From: a virus
Virus record (IMG/VR): IMGVR_UViG_3300033141_005088
Span: 1 to 49,883 of that record
DNA: 49,883 nucleotides
Direction: 5' to 3' (one strand)
The stretch's first letter is position 1. Every line of letters begins with the position of its first letter. Under the pieces are notes generated by a model. It was not told the origin of the DNA. It was given only the letters and a program-made list of their open reading frames with translations, and searched no databases. Below are positions 3,059 through 49,725 of the stretch, piece after piece. The position numbers were made by a program, and so were the translations under genes.

Positions 3059-3136
3059 ATTCGTTTGAAATTCGTTTGAAGCTCAAAATCAAATTTTTTT
3101 CCCTTCAAACGAATTTCAAACGAATTTCAAACGAAT
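3059..3136. repeat. 11-bp iterons (ATTCGTTTGAA) in direct and inverted arrays
   Basis: Two forward copies abut at 3059-3069 and 3070-3080; three reverse copies (TTCAAACGAAT) follow at 3104-3114, 3115-3125 and 3126-3136 with an exact 11-bp period. Further copies or near copies occur near 2930, 2938, 2979 and 3007. One helical turn per copy suggests cooperative binding of an initiator on one DNA face. The gap between the arrays (3081-3103) is AT-rich. Confidence 0.85.
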
Positions 3137-38243: not shown

Positions 38244-38621
38244 CTATTCTCTATACGTAACTCCTGCTTTTTCACTTTCCCAAATTGTCACAGACTCGAC
38301 CTCAAGTACATATAAATCCTCATCTTTCCTTAACAGCCTCTCTATATCTCTGTATATCCTTTTTGCAAGAAACTCGGCCGTAGGATTTTCGGTCTCATAC
38401 AACTCATTGAGGTACACATGGTCCGGGATAACTGCTTTCAAAATTCCTTTCAACTTTTTGAAATCCACAAACATGTTATCCTTTGGTAATGTCCGTCCAA
38501 GATGAGTAAATTCAACCTCAGCTTTTATAGTGTGCCCGTGTAAATTTCGGCAGGGTCCCTTGTAACTCTCGAGCTTGTGAGCTACGGCTCCGGTCGCTCT
38601 TATAATATACGCAAATGACAC
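38244..38621 (-). CDS. queD: 6-carboxy-tetrahydropterin synthase QueD
   Basis: I choose GTG 38621, directly after GAGGAGGAGTAAA; the upstream TTG (38636) lies inside that site. About 125 residues: GAVAHKLE, CRNLHGHTIKAEVEF with the catalytic Cys and two zinc His, DFKKLKGILK, and the terminal VTIWESEKAG. It makes 6-carboxytetrahydropterin from dihydroneopterin triphosphate, the second step to preQ0. Part of the block with folE, queE and queC. Confidence 0.9.
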   Translation of the reverse strand: MSFAYIIRATGAVAHKLESYKGPCRNLHGHTIKAEVEFTHLGRTLPKDNMFVDFKKLKGILKAVIPDHVYLNELYETENPTAEFLAKRIYRDIERLLRKDEDLYVLEVESVTIWESEKAGVTYRE

Positions 38622-38622
38622 T

Positions 38623-38817
38623 TTACTCCTCCTCAAAAATTTTCTTTAGTTTTTTAAACATTACATCATAGTCTAATAGTTTATGATTAACTACTTTTTC
38701 TACAAAGCTATCTAAAAGCTTCTCCATTTTTTTATATTTTATATTTTCTCTATATTGTTTTCTATCAGCTTCTTTTTCCATATTATATACTGTTAAAAAT
38801 CCGTCTTTCTGCACCAT
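38623..38817 (-). CDS. Hypothetical charged protein between folE and queD, 64 aa
   Basis: GCGAGGAAAAATA precedes the ATG. Lys/Glu-rich and mostly helical (MEKLLDSFVEKVVNHKLLDY, KKLKKIFEEE). The stop lies just ahead of the queD start, so the two are coupled. No motif is recognised and its A/T content is higher than the flanking queuosine genes. It may be a recent insertion in that block. Confidence 0.6.
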   Translation of the reverse strand: MVQKDGFLTVYNMEKEADRKQYRENIKYKKMEKLLDSFVEKVVNHKLLDYDVMFKKLKKIFEEE

Positions 38818-38839
38818 TATTTTTCCTCGCCTCTCCCTC

Positions 38840-39421
38840 CTAAATTCTTCTATCTTCGTAAGACCTAATCAAGCTTAAGAACTCGCTTTTTGCATTAGGG
38901 TTGTCGCGGAATATCCCTTTGAGAGAACTTGTTATAACTGCTGAATTCTGCTTAATACCTCTAGCTACCATACACATGTGCACTCCTTTTATCATAACGA
39001 TACTTCCTAAACACTCGAGCTCCTTATATAGAGCGTCTGCCAGAACCTCGGTATAAGTTTCCTGAAGAAATGGGTACTTGGCCATCACTACAACAAACCT
39101 GGCTATCTTCGATAGTCCAATAACATACTTCTTCGGAATGTACCCGACACTTACCCTATACAAAACCGGAAGTAGATGGTGGGGGCAGAGAGAAGATGCT
39201 TGAATCCCCGGTACAATCACCATCTCATTATTTGTTGAAGGGAATCTGGCTTTTGTAAACTTCCGAATCTGTGAATCAATTTCTTCTCGCGGTGAAATGT
39301 ACTCAGACAAATATGTAGCAATCCTCTTAGGGGTATCAACAAAATTCGGGTCATTAAGGTCAACCCCTAAGGCTTTCAACCCTTGTCTAATAGCTTCAGT
39401 AGTTAGTGTTATCTTTTTCAT
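38840..39421 (-). CDS. folE: GTP cyclohydrolase I (FolE)
   Basis: Start at 39421, after AAGGAGGAGAGT and overlapping the queE stop; an earlier in-frame start at 39445 is unlikely. About 193 residues: VDTPKRIATYLSE, SSLCPHHLLPV with the zinc Cys/His, GYIPKKYVIGLSKIARFV, LQETYTEVLADAL, MCMVARGIKQ. It converts GTP to dihydroneopterin triphosphate, the entry to preQ0. All expected active-site residues seem present. Confidence 0.93.
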   Translation of the reverse strand: MKKITLTTEAIRQGLKALGVDLNDPNFVDTPKRIATYLSEYISPREEIDSQIRKFTKARFPSTNNEMVIVPGIQASSLCPHHLLPVLYRVSVGYIPKKYVIGLSKIARFVVVMAKYPFLQETYTEVLADALYKELECLGSIVMIKGVHMCMVARGIKQNSAVITSSLKGIFRDNPNAKSEFLSLIRSYEDRRI

Positions 39422-40089
39422 ACTCTCCTCCTTTTTGAGCCCCAAATTACCTTATGTAATTGGGTTTGCAAAATACAATGTCTAAACGCGCTATCTTTGA
39501 CCATTAAAGCTGCTACATCTTGCATTAGCTTCTTATCCCCCCAAACCGGTGAAATATAAACAGGAGGGAGAAACTTCCTATATAGCTGCAGAACCTCTCT
39601 TACGAAAGCCATATCATCCAAGCTAGTTACTACAAACTTTACTACACCAGTATCCCTCAATTTTGGCAGGTTTTCTTTATAAATTCTAATATTCTTGTTC
39701 CCACTGCCTGGAGTTTTTATATCCATAACGACTTGTACTTGTAACCCCTGAGTAAACAACGCAGACGGAATTATCACCTCACCATTAGTCTCAAGTACAA
39801 TGTTTATAGATGGCTTCTTGGCAACTAACTTCTTTATGAGAATTAACGTACTCGCTGCTTGTAATAGTGGCTCACCACCTGTAATACATACATAGCTGGC
39901 TTGAGAATCTATTACCCTGGAGACTAAAGAGCTAATTTGTGCTACATATCCTGAGCTCTTGTCTTGAGCGTAGATTGTATCACAATAATTGCAACGTAGA
40001 TTGCAACCGGCTGTACGTATGAAATAGGTAACCCTGCCAGAAGAAGGCCCTTCGCCTTGAATGGATGTAAATTCTTCATTTACAAGCAT
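39418..40089 (-). CDS. queE: 7-carboxy-7-deazaguanine synthase QueE (radical SAM)
   Basis: Start at 40089, after ACGAAGGAGGAAGAC. About 223 residues. EEFTSIQGEGPSSGRVTYFI, then AGCNLRCNYCDT with the CxxxCxxC iron-sulphur cluster motif, ITGGEPLLQ and VLETNGE. It rearranges carboxytetrahydropterin to CDG. It overlaps both queC (start inside its end) and folE (ATGA), so the three are translated as a unit. Confidence 0.93.
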   Translation of the reverse strand: MLVNEEFTSIQGEGPSSGRVTYFIRTAGCNLRCNYCDTIYAQDKSSGYVAQISSLVSRVIDSQASYVCITGGEPLLQAASTLILIKKLVAKKPSINIVLETNGEVIIPSALFTQGLQVQVVMDIKTPGSGNKNIRIYKENLPKLRDTGVVKFVVTSLDDMAFVREVLQLYRKFLPPVYISPVWGDKKLMQDVAALMVKDSAFRHCILQTQLHKVIWGSKRRRV

Positions 40090-40765
40090 GTCTTCCTCCT
40101 TCGTACTCAATCGGGTCCGCAACTCCTGCTTTTGAAAAAGCCTCAAGCCTGCTTAAACAAGCTGAACACTTCCCGCAGGCTTTCTCTTTCCCGTTATAAC
40201 AAGTCCAGGTTAAATGGAATGGGGCACCGAGCTGAACTCCTACTTCAACAATTTCAGCTTTTGTTAAGTACTGGAATGGAACTATGAGACGGACTTGGTG
40301 ATAAGTCCCAACATAAATCGCGCTGCCTATTGCTCCATTAAACTCGGGAGTACAGTCGGGGTAAGCCCACTCAGCAGCATCATCAGCGTGAGCTCCATAG
40401 TAAATCAAGTCGGCTCCTTGACTCAAAGCTACTGCCGCTGCGCTCGAGAGAAGAACTCCATTTCGAAAAGGTACATATGTTGGAGAAACTCCTTGAATTT
40501 CAGCATAAGACTTCTCGGGAACTCCCTTTCTCCAGTTGATTAAGGAACTATCTGACCCCTTGAAAATATCCGGGATTACTATCTCCTGCCATAAGAGAAT
40601 CCCTAAGAACTTCGCAACTTTCTTCGCGGAGCTAATCTCTTTTTGATGCCTTTGTCCGTAATTAATAGTCAGTCCAATCACATTTTTTGCTCCGTGGTTC
40701 TTTACGGCCAGAGCTCCAACCGTTGTACTATCCATCCCTCCGGATAGTAATACTATAGCTGTCAT
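40076..40765 (-). CDS. queC: PreQ0 synthase QueC
   Basis: 229 residues, AAAGGAAATTACA site. PP-loop SGGMDSTTVGALAV for ATP, TINYGQRHQKEI, PTYVPFRNGVLLSSAAAVAL, and the C-terminal zinc site TCYNGKEKACGKCSACLSRL. It turns CDG into preQ0 with ammonia and ATP. The product can feed the DpdA-like enzyme. No QueF is seen in the window, so reduction to preQ1 is not expected. Confidence 0.94.
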   Translation of the reverse strand: MTAIVLLSGGMDSTTVGALAVKNHGAKNVIGLTINYGQRHQKEISSAKKVAKFLGILLWQEIVIPDIFKGSDSSLINWRKGVPEKSYAEIQGVSPTYVPFRNGVLLSSAAAVALSQGADLIYYGAHADDAAEWAYPDCTPEFNGAIGSAIYVGTYHQVRLIVPFQYLTKAEIVEVGVQLGAPFHLTWTCYNGKEKACGKCSACLSRLEAFSKAGVADPIEYEGGRHACK

Positions 40766-43187: not shown

Positions 43188-43268
43188 TCAACGGAGTATT
43201 ATTAATAAAATTATGATACCTACTATAACAAGTCCAAGAGCATACGGATACAATCCGTCAATATCCAT
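43188..43268 (-). CDS. Micro membrane protein, 26 aa
   Basis: ATG at 43268 after AAAGGAGGTAAAAG, overlapping the upstream stop. The product has a short acidic head (MDIDGLYPYA) and one membrane helix (LGLVIVGIIILLIILR). It is too short for most gene callers. The strong site and coupled overlap make translation plausible. Role unknown. Confidence 0.55.
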   Translation of the reverse strand: MDIDGLYPYALGLVIVGIIILLIILR

Positions 43269-43464
43269 CTTTTACCTCCTTTTTACTTTTTAATACTATC
43301 AACTCAATTAAGCACTTTGGCATTCTTGGGTCATCAAAATCAAGGTTCCGTCTTTTTAATACTACTTCATGACCCTGCCGTTCGATTTTCCTTTTTTCTT
43401 CTAACGCTTGAGACTCTTTAAAGCACGTCCGAATCTCCAATATGTCTTCTCTTTCTATTTTCAT
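43258..43464 (-). CDS. Hypothetical charged protein, 68 aa
   Basis: AAGGAGGTAAAAG site after the first intergenic hairpin. MKIEREDILEIRTCFKESQA, then a basic helix and DFDDPRMPKCLIELIVLKSK. Two Cys. It overlaps the micro membrane-protein gene. No family is recognised. Confidence 0.6.
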   Translation of the reverse strand: MKIEREDILEIRTCFKESQALEEKRKIERQGHEVVLKRRNLDFDDPRMPKCLIELIVLKSKKEVKDGY

Positions 43465-43483: not shown

Positions 43484-43531
43484 AATAATCTCAACTAAGC
43501 CTCCATTCCTGGAGGCAAAGTTCAAATTATT
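43484..43531 (-). repeat. Intergenic structured repeat, copy 1
   Basis: On the minus strand an outer stem AATAATTTGAAC/GTTGAGATTATT encloses an inner stem GCCTCCA-GGAA-TGGAGGC. It has the same plan as the copies at 43840, 44186 and 44419 but with compensatory base changes (AAC/GTT for AAGG/CCTT and a wholly different inner stem). It lies between two gene ends and directly before a ribosome site. Confidence 0.75.
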
Positions 43532-43820
43532 TCAACAGTTTCTCTTCACGCAAAAATGTGCATACACCATCATAGTCATCCTCGGTATAAACGGCGTTGT
43601 CAATTCCGCTTCCAAGCTGGGGTAGATGTTCGGTGTTCTCCCAGAAATGCCCATCTGCCCATTCTGCGGTTTTTCTGTCATGGTCTACAATAATAATGAG
43701 ACGATAGCCTTCTCTTTCGTATGGTGTGAGACTTTCTAGAAGTTCCGGTACATCAACATCGGATGAAAAATATCTCTTTGCTTCTTCATAATCGAGTTCA
43801 AATTCTTGTATACCTTTCAT
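43527..43820 (-). CDS. Hypothetical acidic protein, 97 aa
   Basis: ATG at 43820 after AGGAGGTATAAA; the frame upstream lacks a site. MKGIQEFELDYEEAKRYFSS, a beta hairpin GYRLIIIVDHDRKTAEWADG, and YTEDDYDGVCTFLREEKLL. The net charge is strongly negative, which may hint at DNA mimicry or host-protein binding, but this is only inference. Flanked by structured repeats on both sides; its stop codon is inside copy 1. Confidence 0.65.
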   Translation of the reverse strand: MKGIQEFELDYEEAKRYFSSDVDVPELLESLTPYEREGYRLIIIVDHDRKTAEWADGHFWENTEHLPQLGSGIDNAVYTEDDYDGVCTFLREEKLLK

Positions 43821-43839
43821 TTTATACCTCCTTGATTTT

Positions 43840-43889
43840 AATAATCTCAAGGAAGAGCATTATTTCTAATGCTCAACCTTCAAATTATT
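43840..43889 (-). repeat. Intergenic structured repeat, copy 2
   Basis: Minus strand: AATAATTTGAAGG pairs with CCTTGAGATTATT (12 of 13), a TT/TT internal loop follows, then GAGCATTA-GAAA-TAATGCTC with a GNRA loop. Identical core to copy 3. It precedes the ribosome site of the gene starting at 43820. Confidence 0.8.
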
Positions 43890-43901
43890 TATCTTCTTCA
43901 C

Positions 43902-44162
43902 TCAACTATTCAACCATTCAATAAGAGCTATCATATCATCTAATGCTGCTAATGTAACGGCTTCACTATCTATGGAACTTCCTGCTCCTTGGACAGGCCG
44001 TCTCTTGTAGAACCTGGCTTCAGGATTTTCTTCCAATTCTTTAATCATAGCCTGTAAGTCTCTAACCAACCATTTAGCACTGCTAATTAAGTCATCTCTA
44101 GCTCGATTTCTTTTTGATTTTAGTGTTCTCAACAGAGTTTCATTTTTCTCTTTTAAATTCAT
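43902..44162 (-). CDS. Hypothetical helical protein, 86 aa
   Basis: AGGAGATTACG site. Mostly helical: MNLKEKNETLLRTLKSKRNR, LISSAKWLVRDLQAMIKELE, then a loop YKRRPVQGAGSSIDSEAVTL and a last helix DDMIALIEWL. No Cys or membrane part. Flanked by structured repeat copies 2 and 3. Function unknown. Confidence 0.65.
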   Translation of the reverse strand: MNLKEKNETLLRTLKSKRNRARDDLISSAKWLVRDLQAMIKELEENPEARFYKRRPVQGAGSSIDSEAVTLAALDDMIALIEWLNS

Positions 44163-44185
44163 CGTAATCTCCTTTTCACAATTTT

Positions 44186-44235
44186 AATAATCTCAAGGAA
44201 GAGCATTATTTCTAATGCTCAACCTTCAAATTATT
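44186..44235 (-). repeat. Intergenic structured repeat, copy 3
   Basis: Same sequence core as copy 2 (outer stem, TT/TT loop, 8-bp inner stem with GAAA loop). The stop codon of the upstream 55-residue gene (44234-44236) lies at its edge, so the RNA begins exactly where translation ends. Confidence 0.8.
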
Positions 44236-44401
44236 AAACTCTCATTTGTGTTTTTAATATCTGACAATATTCAATTACCTTGTTCAGTAATACTCCCATA
44301 TCTTTTCTATTACCTTGATATAGAGCGCAGTGATTGATTGTGTCTTTAATTTCCTGGAATCCTTGTTTTACTTTTTTACTTTCTTTTCTTGCTTCTTTCA
44401 T
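44234..44401 (-). CDS. Small helical protein, 55 aa
   Basis: ATG at 44401 after AAAGGAGGAAAA. MKEARKESKKVKQGFQEIKD then HCALYQGNRKDMGVLLNKVI and EYCQILKTQMRV: a basic helix and an amphipathic helix with two Cys. Flanked by structured repeats 3 and 4. Unknown family. Confidence 0.6.
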   Translation of the reverse strand: MKEARKESKKVKQGFQEIKDTINHCALYQGNRKDMGVLLNKVIEYCQILKTQMRV

Positions 44402-44418
44402 TTTTCCTCCTTTAATTT

Positions 44419-44470
44419 AATAATACTCAAGGAGGGATACCGCTTAGAGTACCCAACCTTCAATATTATT
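44419..44470 (-). repeat. Intergenic structured repeat, copy 4
   Basis: Minus strand: AATAATATTGAAGG pairs with CCTTGAGTATTATT; the inner part GGGTAC...GTATCCC forms a stem with one bulged T and a larger loop. The outer stem is conserved and includes a further covarying pair (A-T added), while the inner stem is unrelated in sequence to the other copies. Confidence 0.7.
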
Positions 44471-44613: not shown

Positions 44614-44642
44614 ATTATAAGGGAAAAAACTACAAAAGTCAA
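44614..44642 (-). promoter_or_regulatory. Strong promoter for the leftward small-gene block
   Basis: Minus strand TTGACT (44637-44642), 17 bases, TATAAT (44614-44619): near-consensus. It begins the transcript carrying the genes with intergenic hairpins. A T-rich run lies just upstream of the -35. Confidence 0.72.
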
Positions 44643-46494: not shown

Positions 46495-46842
46495 CTAATA
46501 AAATCTTACTAACCCTGATAAGGTTTTAGTCAGTTCATACATCAATATTTCTTCAAATTCCTGTACTTTTAGATACAAAGCAGAATTACTAGGCATACAT
46601 ACAACTATTAGGTTAAACAAAAATAACTCCAACGTCTTCCCAAACATAACTTTTAGCACTTCTTTCTCGCTTTCAGAGAGCTTTTTTGCTATCTCTTTAA
46701 TACCCTTCTCCATCCAATCTGGTAACTGTACTGATATAGATGCTCCTTTTATACTACTTTTCATCTGTTCTGGTATTTCTAATTTTGTCTCCTCTTCTAA
46801 TCTTTTTAATATATCTTTATAATCTGCTATTATTGCCTTCAT
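46495..46842 (-). CDS. Hypothetical helical protein, 115 aa
   Basis: GTGAGGAAAA site and ATGA overlap with the upstream gene. Helical throughout: ADYKDILKRLEEETKLEIPE, WMEKGIKEIAKKLSESEKEV, and a hydrophobic helix LELFLFNLIVVCMPSNSALY. No motif is recognised. It is separated from the micro membrane gene by 14 bases. Could be membrane-associated. Confidence 0.62.
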   Translation of the reverse strand: MKAIIADYKDILKRLEEETKLEIPEQMKSSIKGASISVQLPDWMEKGIKEIAKKLSESEKEVLKVMFGKTLELFLFNLIVVCMPSNSALYLKVQEFEEILMYELTKTLSGLVRFY

Positions 46843-47234
46843 TTTTCCTCACTTTCCAATAACTCTAACAACAATTTTATTTTAGCTATCAGAGGATTTG
46901 TATTTGAAATATTTGGAATATATTTATAACTATAAACTGTTACTTCGCAATTATCAGCAAAATAGTAAATCCCGTATTGTAAATTTCTTTTTTTAACTAT
47001 CTTTATTATCTCCTCATCTAACTGGTCTCCTGAGGGCAACCAGATTAAATCCTCTCTATCAGCAAATCCATTAGTCTCTTCTTCAAACCTTCTGCAATCT
47101 TCATCAAACAAATATATCTCAAAATCTTCTCTATCACTATACCAATCTCCAACTTTCAATTGAGGTCTTAACTTCTGTATTTCCTTACAATTACATTTAG
47201 CTATGTACTTCTTTGTAAAATATTTCATTTTCAT
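46839..47234 (-). CDS. Paralogous early protein A, 131 aa
   Basis: Shares its plan with the gene at 49064: KYFTKKYIAKC at the start, a VGDWY segment, DLIWLPSGDQLDEEIIKIV in the middle and NPLIAKIKLLLELLESEEK at the end. The variable part between GDWY and IWLP is acidic. Such tandem paralogues with one variable segment suggest diversification against host targets (inference). No known family. Coupled to the upstream gene. Confidence 0.68.
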   Translation of the reverse strand: MKMKYFTKKYIAKCNCKEIQKLRPQLKVGDWYSDREDFEIYLFDEDCRRFEEETNGFADREDLIWLPSGDQLDEEIIKIVKKRNLQYGIYYFADNCEVTVYSYKYIPNISNTNPLIAKIKLLLELLESEEK

Positions 47235-47647
47235 AAATCACTTCTTTCTGCCAACACCCTTGTCCTAATGTCGGTTGCTATTTTTTTAGCTTGCTCTTTT
47301 GATTTTGCCCAACAATAAACTTCTAAAAATTTAATACCTTCATAATCTTTATCCAAGATATAAGTTGTTTTCCTATTTAGGTTTCTTCCCGTTAGACTAA
47401 CAAATATTGTTTTTCCAGTTTGTAATTCCAACCTTACAGCGTAATGATTCTTATCTTTTGGATAATTAGGAAAATTCATATCTGAATCGTACAAATCATA
47501 TTCTTCTATAAATGCTCCTGTATATCCAAAATATCCAATCTTGTTCTTGAGCTCTACAAATTTTTCTGCCAATTCCTTTTTTGAGAATACTGCGTGTATC
47601 CCATAATCTGAATATTCTCCGCTTGTTACTATATAAACTTTTTTCAT
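47231..47647 (-). CDS. DUF7336-like hypothetical protein, 138 aa
   Basis: GTGAGGAACG site. MKKVYIVTSGEYSDYGIHAV, then FSKKELAEKFVELKNK, is the start of a small family I have seen annotated in phages and clostridia (KVYIVTSGxYSDYxIxxVFxxxxxA). The rest is alpha/beta with a final helix EQAKKIATDIRTRVL. Function unknown. Confidence 0.68.
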   Translation of the reverse strand: MKKVYIVTSGEYSDYGIHAVFSKKELAEKFVELKNKIGYFGYTGAFIEEYDLYDSDMNFPNYPKDKNHYAVRLELQTGKTIFVSLTGRNLNRKTTYILDKDYEGIKFLEVYCWAKSKEQAKKIATDIRTRVLAERSDL

Positions 47648-47666
47648 CGTTCCTCACTTTCTAATA

Positions 47667-47858
47667 TTAACTCTCTTTGTTTGTATAAAGTAACTTCCTT
47701 TGGACCTTTTTAATTGGTTCATCTGTAAATATTACATGATTGTAAAACTGTATTTTTGTTCCATTTTCCCTTCCAGCTTCTCTTTCTTCAAGAGAACATA
47801 CTTTTTCTGGATTAACAAATACAATACTTCCATTGTCTTTAAAACTTATTAGTTTCAT
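47667..47858 (-). CDS. Small hypothetical protein, FlbD-like plan, 63 aa
   Basis: GTGAGGGAGA site. MKLISFKDNGSIVFVNPEKV then TKIQFYNHVIFTDEPIKK: a short all-beta protein like the FlbD family (L..NG..IVN...V....TxIxF.N). Not a flagellar context here. Role unknown. Confidence 0.6.
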   Translation of the reverse strand: MKLISFKDNGSIVFVNPEKVCSLEEREAGRENGTKIQFYNHVIFTDEPIKKVQRKLLYTNKES

Positions 47859-47880
47859 TCTCCCTCACTTAGTTGACTTT

Positions 47881-48084
47881 TTAATTCCTCTTTTTCTTTA
47901 ACGCTTGAACTTCTTCTACTTCCAAAACTACTTTTACCTTTTTGCCATTGTAGTTTTTAAGGCCGTAAAAGCTGAGAACTTCATCAGGGAACGTACCATA
48001 CCCATCATCATCCACAATCCAATATGCACCCGTACCCTCTTCATGTTCTACTCTACCTCTTACCAACACTATTCGTTTAATCAT
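47881..48084 (-). CDS. Small hypothetical protein, 67 aa
   Basis: AGGAGGAGAAG site. IKRIVLVRGRVEHEEGTGAY, WIVDDDGYGTFPDEVL, and NGKKVKVVLEVEEVQ at the end. The final NGKxVxVxxExE strand recurs in the genes at 48759 and at the circle junction, which hints at a shared fold. No family named. Confidence 0.6.
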   Translation of the reverse strand: MIKRIVLVRGRVEHEEGTGAYWIVDDDGYGTFPDEVLSFYGLKNYNGKKVKVVLEVEEVQALKKKRN

Positions 48085-48102
48085 CTTCTCCTCCTGTCCT
48101 TC

Positions 48103-48354
48103 TTAAGGTCTTGGAATTATTCCACGCCCTCCACAGGTTCTACAGGTCTCAGGAATTAAATTAACTGCAGTAGTTTTCTGCTCCTCCGAAACTGAGTAAA
48201 AATTCCAAGGTACTATACCTCTACCTTCGCACACAGGGCATTTCTGGTATTCACTTTTATAACAATCTTCGCAAGAAAGCGTCGAACTATCTGGTGCAAA
48301 CGTCGAGTTATCCGGTATAGATACAGCCTTTCCGTACCTGCAATTTAAAACCAT
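48103..48354 (-). CDS. DnaJ-type zinc-finger small protein, 83 aa
   Basis: GCGAGGAGAAACA site. CEDCYKSEYQKCPVCEGRGI and later CRTCGGRGIIPRP: two CxxCxGRG units as in the DnaJ central domain, plus an extra CxxC. It probably binds two zinc ions and could act in protein or RNA binding. No J-domain. Confidence 0.7.
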   Translation of the reverse strand: MVLNCRYGKAVSIPDNSTFAPDSSTLSCEDCYKSEYQKCPVCEGRGIVPWNFYSVSEEQKTTAVNLIPETCRTCGGRGIIPRP

Positions 48355-48374
48355 TGTTTCTCCTCGCTTCCTTT

Positions 48375-48719
48375 TTAATATTCTTCATATCCCTGACGTG
48401 CTTCCCATTCTGCTTGCTTATATGCTTCCTCTTGGGCTTGCATTTCGGCTTCATATTTTGCCTTTTCTTCTGCTTCTGCTTCCGAGCTATAATATTCTCC
48501 TGGGTCTTCATTTTGGTTTCTTTCTGGTTTCTTTCCTGTTTTAATTCCTCTATCCTTTTTTTCTAATTTACTTTTCTTCCTGCTTTCTAAGTTTTTATCT
48601 CTCTTAAATCCAATTTCATTTAAAATTTTAATCAAATATTCCATCTTACTATCCCCAACATACCATTCCAAATTATCAAAATTATTAATTTTTATAATAT
48701 TACCTGGCATTTCATTCAC
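48375..48719 (-). CDS. Charged coiled-coil protein, 114 aa
   Basis: AGGTGTGA before the ATG; a second ATG two codons on is possible. The first 45 residues are globular (NIIKINNFDNLEWYVGDSKM, EYLIKILNEIG), a Lys/Arg-rich linker follows, then a Glu/Ala-rich helix (EAEAEEKAKYEAEMQAQEEA). The repetitive coding sequence also opens other frames, which are rejected. Unknown family. Confidence 0.6.
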   Translation of the reverse strand: MNEMPGNIIKINNFDNLEWYVGDSKMEYLIKILNEIGFKRDKNLESRKKSKLEKKDRGIKTGKKPERNQNEDPGEYYSSEAEAEEKAKYEAEMQAQEEAYKQAEWEARQGYEEY

Positions 48720-48758
48720 ACCTCACTTTATTGCAAATATTTAGCTTCTTGGTATACC

Positions 48759-49067
48759 TCATTTCTTCTCACTTTCTATTATTAATCTAATTTTTTTACC
48801 ATCATATTTATTAAAAATCGCCCCTGAGAACATTACCCCCTCAGAAGTTCCACCCCTGGGAAAATATAATATGTTTTTAACCATCTTTCCTTCTGCTATT
48901 ACTTCCCTTACATTGTTTGCATTTGTTTCAATTAATTTCGTAGAATCTAATTCTCTTACAGCTATTTTTGCAAGAGCTTTAGCTATTTTCCTATTCATCT
49001 GCGGGTCTATGAATAGAAAAGGTCTATCTACAAGATACCTATAAAATTTCTTCTCTAAATTATTCAT
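48759..49067 (-). CDS. Hypothetical protein, 102 aa
   Basis: GTGAGGAGAA site, ATGA overlap with the upstream gene. Helical first half (NRKIAKALAKIAVRELDSTK), then a beta end (MVKNILYFPRGGTSEGVMFS) and NKYDGKKIRLIIESEKK, which resembles the ends of the genes at 47881 and at the circle junction. No named family. Confidence 0.62.
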   Translation of the reverse strand: MNNLEKKFYRYLVDRPFLFIDPQMNRKIAKALAKIAVRELDSTKLIETNANNVREVIAEGKMVKNILYFPRGGTSEGVMFSGAIFNKYDGKKIRLIIESEKK

Positions 49068-49498
49068 TTCTCCTCACTTTCTTCCTCCTTTAGTTTCTTT
49101 AACAACTTTATCTTTCCTACTAGAGGATTTTTGTTCTTATAGGTATATTTAATCGTAACTTCTCCTACGCCCTGCACGTGCCACGAGTACTTTTCCATTA
49201 TCTCACTGCAAGAATAAGCACATCTATAGACATCAAAACTTGTACTAACTATTTTAATTATTTCCTCATCCAGTTGCTCGCCAGTGGGCAACCAGATTAT
49301 ATTTCGTCTATTATTACTAACTGTAGTTTCTAAATCCCAACTACCAATTACGTTTGGTGTCGGGTTTAGCGTTACTTCACCAGAGCACTCTTTTGGTATA
49401 TTTGGTATATACCAATCGCCATATCTAAGCCTCTTTTTTAGCCTTTGTATTCTCTCATCTTTACATAACTCAATATATTCTTTTGTAAAATATTTCAT
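49064..49498 (-). CDS. Paralogous early protein B, 144 aa
   Basis: Paralogue of the gene at 46839: MKYFTKEYIELC, RYGDWYIPNI, NIIWLPTGEQLDEEIIKIV and NPLVGKIKLLKKLKEEESEEK. The middle 45 residues differ completely (here Asn/Pro/Thr-rich). AAGCGAGGTAAA site; ATGA overlap with the upstream gene. Function unknown; see the finding on this pair. Confidence 0.68.
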   Translation of the reverse strand: MKYFTKEYIELCKDERIQRLKKRLRYGDWYIPNIPKECSGEVTLNPTPNVIGSWDLETTVSNNRRNIIWLPTGEQLDEEIIKIVSTSFDVYRCAYSCSEIMEKYSWHVQGVGEVTIKYTYKNKNPLVGKIKLLKKLKEEESEEK

Positions 49499-49725
49499 TT
49501 TACCTCGCTTTCTGATTTTCTTAATTTATTTATTTCTTCTCTTATCAAGCGATGACAATTCCGCTGGAAATTGCAATTCTTCCCTCCTAACTGGCAATTA
49601 TATAATCCAAGTACACCTTCCAACCTCTCTAGCTGGTCTATCAGTAACTTGTTAATTTGTTTATCATTTGATTGTTTATTACCAAACAAAAATTTAACCA
49701 TATCTCTAGTCCAAGGTACTCCCAT
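49495..49725 (-). CDS. Cys-containing hypothetical protein, 76 aa
   Basis: AAAGAGGACTA before the ATG, which overlaps the upstream stop (CATTA). MGVPWTRDMVKFLFGNKQSN, then a helix with LERLEGVLGLYNCQLGGKNC and NFQRNCHRLIREEIN: three Cys and one His spaced as for a zinc site. No family. Confidence 0.62.
   Translation of the reverse strand: MGVPWTRDMVKFLFGNKQSNDKQINKLLIDQLERLEGVLGLYNCQLGGKNCNFQRNCHRLIREEINKLRKSESEVK

Follow-up and report, generated by a model that had tools for sequence, protein, structure and literature searches.

A repeated hairpin module with covarying arms, sense to a small-gene operon of an uncultured phage

Why would a phage place nearly the same hairpin just ahead of four successive small genes, and is it the folded RNA or merely the DNA repeat that is kept? 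The question is raised by a locus of an uncultured virus, IMG/VR record IMGVR_UViG_3300033141_005088, whose whole record of 49,883 bases constitutes the window analysed here. The genome has a GC content of 37% and encodes terminase, portal, head, family A DNA polymerase, helicase and primase; the virus is a tailed phage. Catalogued phages are distant, the best records being about 33% identical for the portal and about 30% for the polymerase, and the nearest viral contigs found share 67% (7 kb contig) and 64% (38 kb contig) identity in the large terminase. Among relatives with long records, the closest (L278/G793, terminase 64%) has structural genes in common with this phage and lacks the hairpin operon. 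The ribosome sites are of the form AAGGAGG, which suggests a Gram-positive host.

The earlier note on this DNA described four hairpins, one in each gap of a small-gene operon. All four are present where it placed them, with the correction that the structured strand is the minus strand, on which all the genes around 43-45 kb also lie; the hairpins are therefore sense to the operon. In the order of transcription, the features are the following.

44614..44642, minus strand: near-consensus sigma-70/sigma-A promoter, TTGACT-17-TATAAT (11/12), reading into the hairpin operon
44419..44470, minus strand: hairpin copy 4, the first to be transcribed; its outer stem has 9 bp, followed by G·G, 4 bp, a UU/CU loop, an inner stem of 7 bp and a terminal loop of 6 nt
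44234..44401, minus strand: 55-aa orphan gene, start codon 17 nt past hairpin copy 4
44186..44235, minus strand: hairpin copy 3; the stop of the 55-aa gene overlaps its 5' edge and the next start is 23 nt on
43902..44162, minus strand: 86-aa orphan gene
43840..43889, minus strand: hairpin copy 2, with the same sequence as copy 3; upstream stop 12 nt before, next start 19 nt after
43527..43820, minus strand: 97-aa orphan gene
43484..43531, minus strand: hairpin copy 1, in which AACU/AGUU replaces AAGG/CCUU; upstream stop TAA inside the 5' arm, next start 19 nt after
43258..43464, minus strand: 68-aa orphan gene, the last with a hairpin leader

Promoter-like sites in the region occur in total at chance level, so only the best of them (44642-44614) is used here, and from it the four hairpin-led genes would be transcribed as one unit. 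Copies 3, 2 and 1 sit between the 55-, 86-, 97- and 68-aa genes. Copy 4 belongs to the leader, some 136 nt downstream of the expected transcript start, with no certain gene upstream (a possible 37-aa reading frame there has no convincing ribosome site), and further genes follow in the same operon whose gaps carry no hairpin; "each gap" thus holds for copies 1-3 and neither for copy 4 nor for the operon as a whole. The distance from stem end to start codon varies little along the transcript (17, 23, 19 and 19 nt), and the ribosome site lies 3' of the hairpin in every copy, as had been claimed. The accompanying claim that the upstream stop codon lies at or in the element is borne out by copies 3 and 1 and fails for copy 2, where the stop precedes the arm. 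The term "operon punctuation" fits these stop-codon and ribosome-site positions. Searches of the four hairpin-led small proteins against Pfam and PHROG found no family above noise. Two familiar identities were considered for the elements and rejected: none of the four is called as an intrinsic terminator, the stem being followed by a AAAAUUAAGGAGG-type sequence without a U-tract, and a tRNA-like identity was likewise set aside.

The four hairpins share one plan of about 50 nt: an A/U outer stem of 8-9 bp, an invariant 1x1 G·G mismatch, 4 bp, a 2x2 pyrimidine loop, an inner stem of 7-8 bp and a small terminal loop. Counting the mismatch and the 2x2 loop, the helix has 22-23 levels from base to loop. 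The outer stem is 8 bp long in copies 1-3 and 9 bp in copy 4, owing to an added A-U pair, and the 2x2 loop is UU/UU, or UU/CU in copy 4. The outer stem of 12-14 bp described earlier is thus right in its paired arms and wrong in being unbroken, as it consists of the 8-9 bp, the G·G mismatch and the following 4 bp. The terminal loops are GGAA in copy 1, GAAA in copies 2 and 3 and six bases in copy 4, so that the GNRA type is confined to copies 1 and 2/3, the larger loop being that of copy 4. The inner stem of copy 1, GCCUCCA/UGGAGGC, is unrelated to the inner stems of the other copies. Folded with their flanks, the four copies reach −23.5 to −27.9 kcal/mol, and in a scan of both genome strands they all belong to the nine lowest-energy 60-nt windows that do not overlap; the sense-strand z-scores are −7.0, −6.2, −7.2 and −4.1, with none of 200 shuffles as stable. 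The complement strand folds 8-10 kcal/mol more weakly, an effect of the mismatch and the wobbles: U·G pairs form on the sense strand only, and G·G is the sole non-pair.

Base changes among the copies of this genome that keep the pairing point to maintenance of the RNA fold. Since copies 2 and 3 do not differ anywhere in the 50-nt hairpin, there are three independent sequences. These were aligned with the inner stems in register, two N being placed in copy 1 to hold it; of the 21 pairs, 12 are invariant, 8 are changed on both sides and 1 departs by a non-pair only, and 98.3% of alignment cells pair against 40-55% in slid-partner controls (0/500 shuffles), figures that describe covariation and do not prove it, since the alignment was made with the structure in mind and has only three sequences. 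The compensatory outer-stem changes reported earlier are real: C-G/U-A in one sequence stands against G-C/G-C in the others within the 4-bp stem, in addition to the A-U pair gained by copy 4. So is the replacement of inner stems that nevertheless pair, among the three distinct sequences. Independently of any alignment, 7-8 positions of each inner segment, counted inwards from its ends, form pairs, and letter shuffling of the inner segments gives at least 7 nested pairs in only 33, 55 and 356 per 200,000 cases. Between copies, identity is 83-97% in the outer arms together with the 2x2 loops and 28-40% in the inner segments. A selected RNA structure is thus supported by copy covariation, sense-only wobbles and fixed architecture. 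As copies 2 and 3 are identical although the genes flanking them are unrelated, the hairpin module has evidently been copied at least once recently.

Relatives of the module were sought in sets that may omit records very near this genome, which bears on every homologue negative that follows. No Rfam covariance model matches above its gathering score in the window. The covariance-model search that the earlier note had proposed returned no credible match in 786 Clostridia and Bacilli genomes and 30 related viral records: model R2 matched nothing in the 395 Bacilli genomes, the viral records were equally negative, and its one match in the 391 Clostridia genomes, antisense inside a glycosyltransferase-like gene, was rejected as a homologue because its score is at the level expected by chance. 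Matches to a DNA pattern in viral contigs lacked the architecture on folding, with one exception, and in the corresponding scan of genome contigs none of the matches listed showed it. The exception, L003:3408-3475 in another viral contig, is an intergenic hairpin with the same outer arms and G·G and a 13-bp inner stem; being single-copy and pattern-selected, it is ambiguous as a homologue. A second inverted repeat (ACCACTCTGGCTC) overlaps its loop. No comparable family of repeated hairpins was found in 77 other loci, blastn of single copies against phages gave chance matches only, and the 2.9-kb region had no blastn match in phages or plasmids. The novelty suggested for the element accordingly extends to its sequence family and not to its principle, as operon stem-loops are known from cip-cel, cggR-gapA and T7/SP82; what is new is a repeated, sequence-related module in a phage operon.

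The RNase III sites of T7 early mRNA and of Bacillus phage SP82 lie between cistrons and are hairpins whose helix, interrupted by internal loops, makes about two turns. The present hairpins resemble them in being imperfect helices of that length, with internal loops, upstream of the next gene of a phage message; the comparison is one of form and not of sequence, the internal loops here being 1x1 and symmetric 2x2, and to our knowledge there is no sequence relation between the two. The second precedent comes from bacteria. The cleaved gaps of the Ruminiclostridium cellulolyticum cip-cel operon are marked by intergenic stem-loops below −15 kcal/mol, which stabilise the products and have no common sequence (PMC10311766). 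For B. subtilis cggR and glnR, the abundance of the products is set by a hairpin directly 3' of an RNase Y cut, an effect that depends on RNase J1 in the case of cggR, and RNase III sites of this species are well paired around the cut (PMC11780869). The phage hairpins have in common with these elements of selective RNA processing and stabilisation (SRPS; cip-cel, B. subtilis cggR-gapA and glnRA) that they are large stem-loops of similar energies in successive gaps, lying between the stop and the next ribosome site, and a stem-loop below about −15 kcal/mol is found in four of four gaps. They differ from the cip-cel stem-loops, which vary in sequence and structure, in constituting one related module with a fixed mismatch, and cleavage here is putative.

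The reading that we tentatively prefer, at somewhat less than an even chance, is that the hairpins are intercistronic elements that process or stabilise the message of one operon. The four, copies of one module just upstream of the ribosome sites of four small genes, would direct the cutting of a polycistronic message at or beside each hairpin. The cut would be made either in the AU-rich sequence at the hairpin foot, by an endonuclease of the RNase Y type, or within the two-turn helix, by a double-strand nuclease of the RNase III type. The hairpin would then form the new 5' end of the piece (the 3' end, were the cut downstream) and shield it from exonucleases, so that message lifetime would be set gene by gene and each ribosome site would remain open. 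In folds of the full element, copies 1, 3 and 4 leave this site unpaired, and copy 2 leaves it about half free. Both the cleavage and the effect on stability are proposed from the observed fold, its sense orientation and its position. Against this reading, the hairpin is missing from the later gaps of the operon, and constancy of the outer-arm sequence is not something that a generic stabiliser should require; against the RNase III option in particular, the 4-bp segment is flanked by mismatch and loop, unlike the well-paired B. subtilis sites. The fixed outer module keeps a specific protein or nuclease site in play.

It is this constancy that recommends a different reading, less probable than processing though the nearest to it, in which a specific RNA-binding protein of phage or host recognises the sequence-fixed outer module and the four genes form a post-transcriptional regulon. 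The protein would contact UUGAA/UUGAG around the G·G together with the UU/YU loop, the inner stem serving as a mere cap, and would coordinate translation or stability. The outer arms and loops are far more conserved than the inner stems (Fisher p 9e-5, 4e-3 and 1e-5), the mismatch and wobble are invariant in all copies, and the similar distance to the start codon (17-23 nt) suits such a site; however, identity among three independent sequences may partly reflect recent copying, the end of the element roughly coincides with the edge of the usual 30S footprint, and no RNA-binding family was found among the scanned proteins. A narrower form, a phage-specific RNA regulon in which a fixed G·G module with a replaceable pairing cap before successive genes is read by a dedicated protein or nuclease, is more doubtful; if true, it would give the phage a tunable control of each gene.

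Two further readings are weaker still. The stop codons in or at the 5' arm of copies 1 and 3 would suit a translational device, in which the hairpin bridges the gap for a terminating ribosome or its 3' arm pairs with the Shine-Dalgarno site; copy 4, with no certain upstream gene, does not suit it, and the reading is improbable. As a switch, melting of the 5' arm would free the 3' arm (CUUCCUUGA, CCUCCUU) for that pairing, and removal of the 5' arm indeed lowers the probability of an unpaired Shine-Dalgarno site to 0.09 (copy 4) and 0.07 (copy 2), but dinucleotide-shuffled arms are equally low in 62, 248, 190 and 589 per 1000, and copy 1, which has lost CCUU through the compensatory change, shows weak sequestration. 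The sequestration switch, suggestive in the folds of two copies but within the shuffle range, is therefore not supported. Least probable of all, at a slim chance, is a palindromic cassette or recombination/operator site acting as DNA and spread by copying, with RNA structure as a by-product: the identity of copies 2 and 3 between unrelated genes shows that the element can move as a unit, but the strand-specific pairing, in which wobbles and mismatch favour the transcribed strand, makes this account less likely, as do the compensatory replacement of inner stems, the single orientation of all four copies and the absence of promoter or U-tract from the element.

Two described phage repeats invite comparison here. 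The extended start-associated sequences (ESAS) of cluster K mycobacteriophages consist of a 17-bp inverted repeat by the 13-bp start-associated sequence GGGATAGGAGCCC, and their authors found that departures in the arms do not support RNA pairing and favoured DNA binding (PMC3203893). Like them, the present hairpins are inverted repeats directly upstream of the ribosome sites of a subset of small phage genes, in several copies per genome; unlike those of ESAS, their arms covary, and membership is rejected as the 13-mer GGGATAGGAGCCC is absent at the ribosome sites of the four genes. The PeSL cassettes of T4-like phages, as described at second hand in PMC4503421, are composite promoter-terminator stem-loop motifs and resemble the present elements as hairpin cassettes dispersed among small orphan genes. 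Membership in PeSL so described is rejected, one strong promoter lying upstream of all four copies and no terminator being called at any of them.

With processing or stabilisation as the preferred reading, the locus would add a phage case to the operon mRNAs partitioned by intergenic hairpins, which come mainly from host operons and a few model phages. Whatever reads them, covarying copies within one operon constitute a natural mutational series, in which the outer module is held in sequence and the inner cap in pairing, and this series separates the recognised part from the merely structural one.

Elsewhere in the genome, a perfect 26-bp hairpin at 2933-2992 (−36.6 kcal/mol) is the most stable of all. 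It has TTCGTTTGA-type arms in common with a second long inverted repeat at 3060-3124, and both lie in the gap from which the primase and structural gene blocks diverge. On the minus strand at 38244-40765, clustered genes for a QueD-like protein (6-pyruvoyl tetrahydropterin synthase-like), GTP cyclohydrolase I, a radical SAM protein (QueE-like) and QueC suggest a deazaguanine modification pathway. The proteins encoded at 46839-47234 and 49064-49498 (minus strand) are probably paralogues, as both match the same G793 gene (L357:1709-2101) at 34-36% identity. The right-hand minus-strand operon at 46495-49725 carries a start-site motif, GAAAGYGAGG, directly before start codons, which differs from the AAGGAGG sites of the hairpin operon. 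Exact copies lie at 46847-46856, 47652-47661, 49072-49081, 49503-49512 and 79-88, and with at most one mismatch there are 16 matches in the window for 5.8 expected. The motif resembles an extended Shine-Dalgarno sequence with one inserted pyrimidine.
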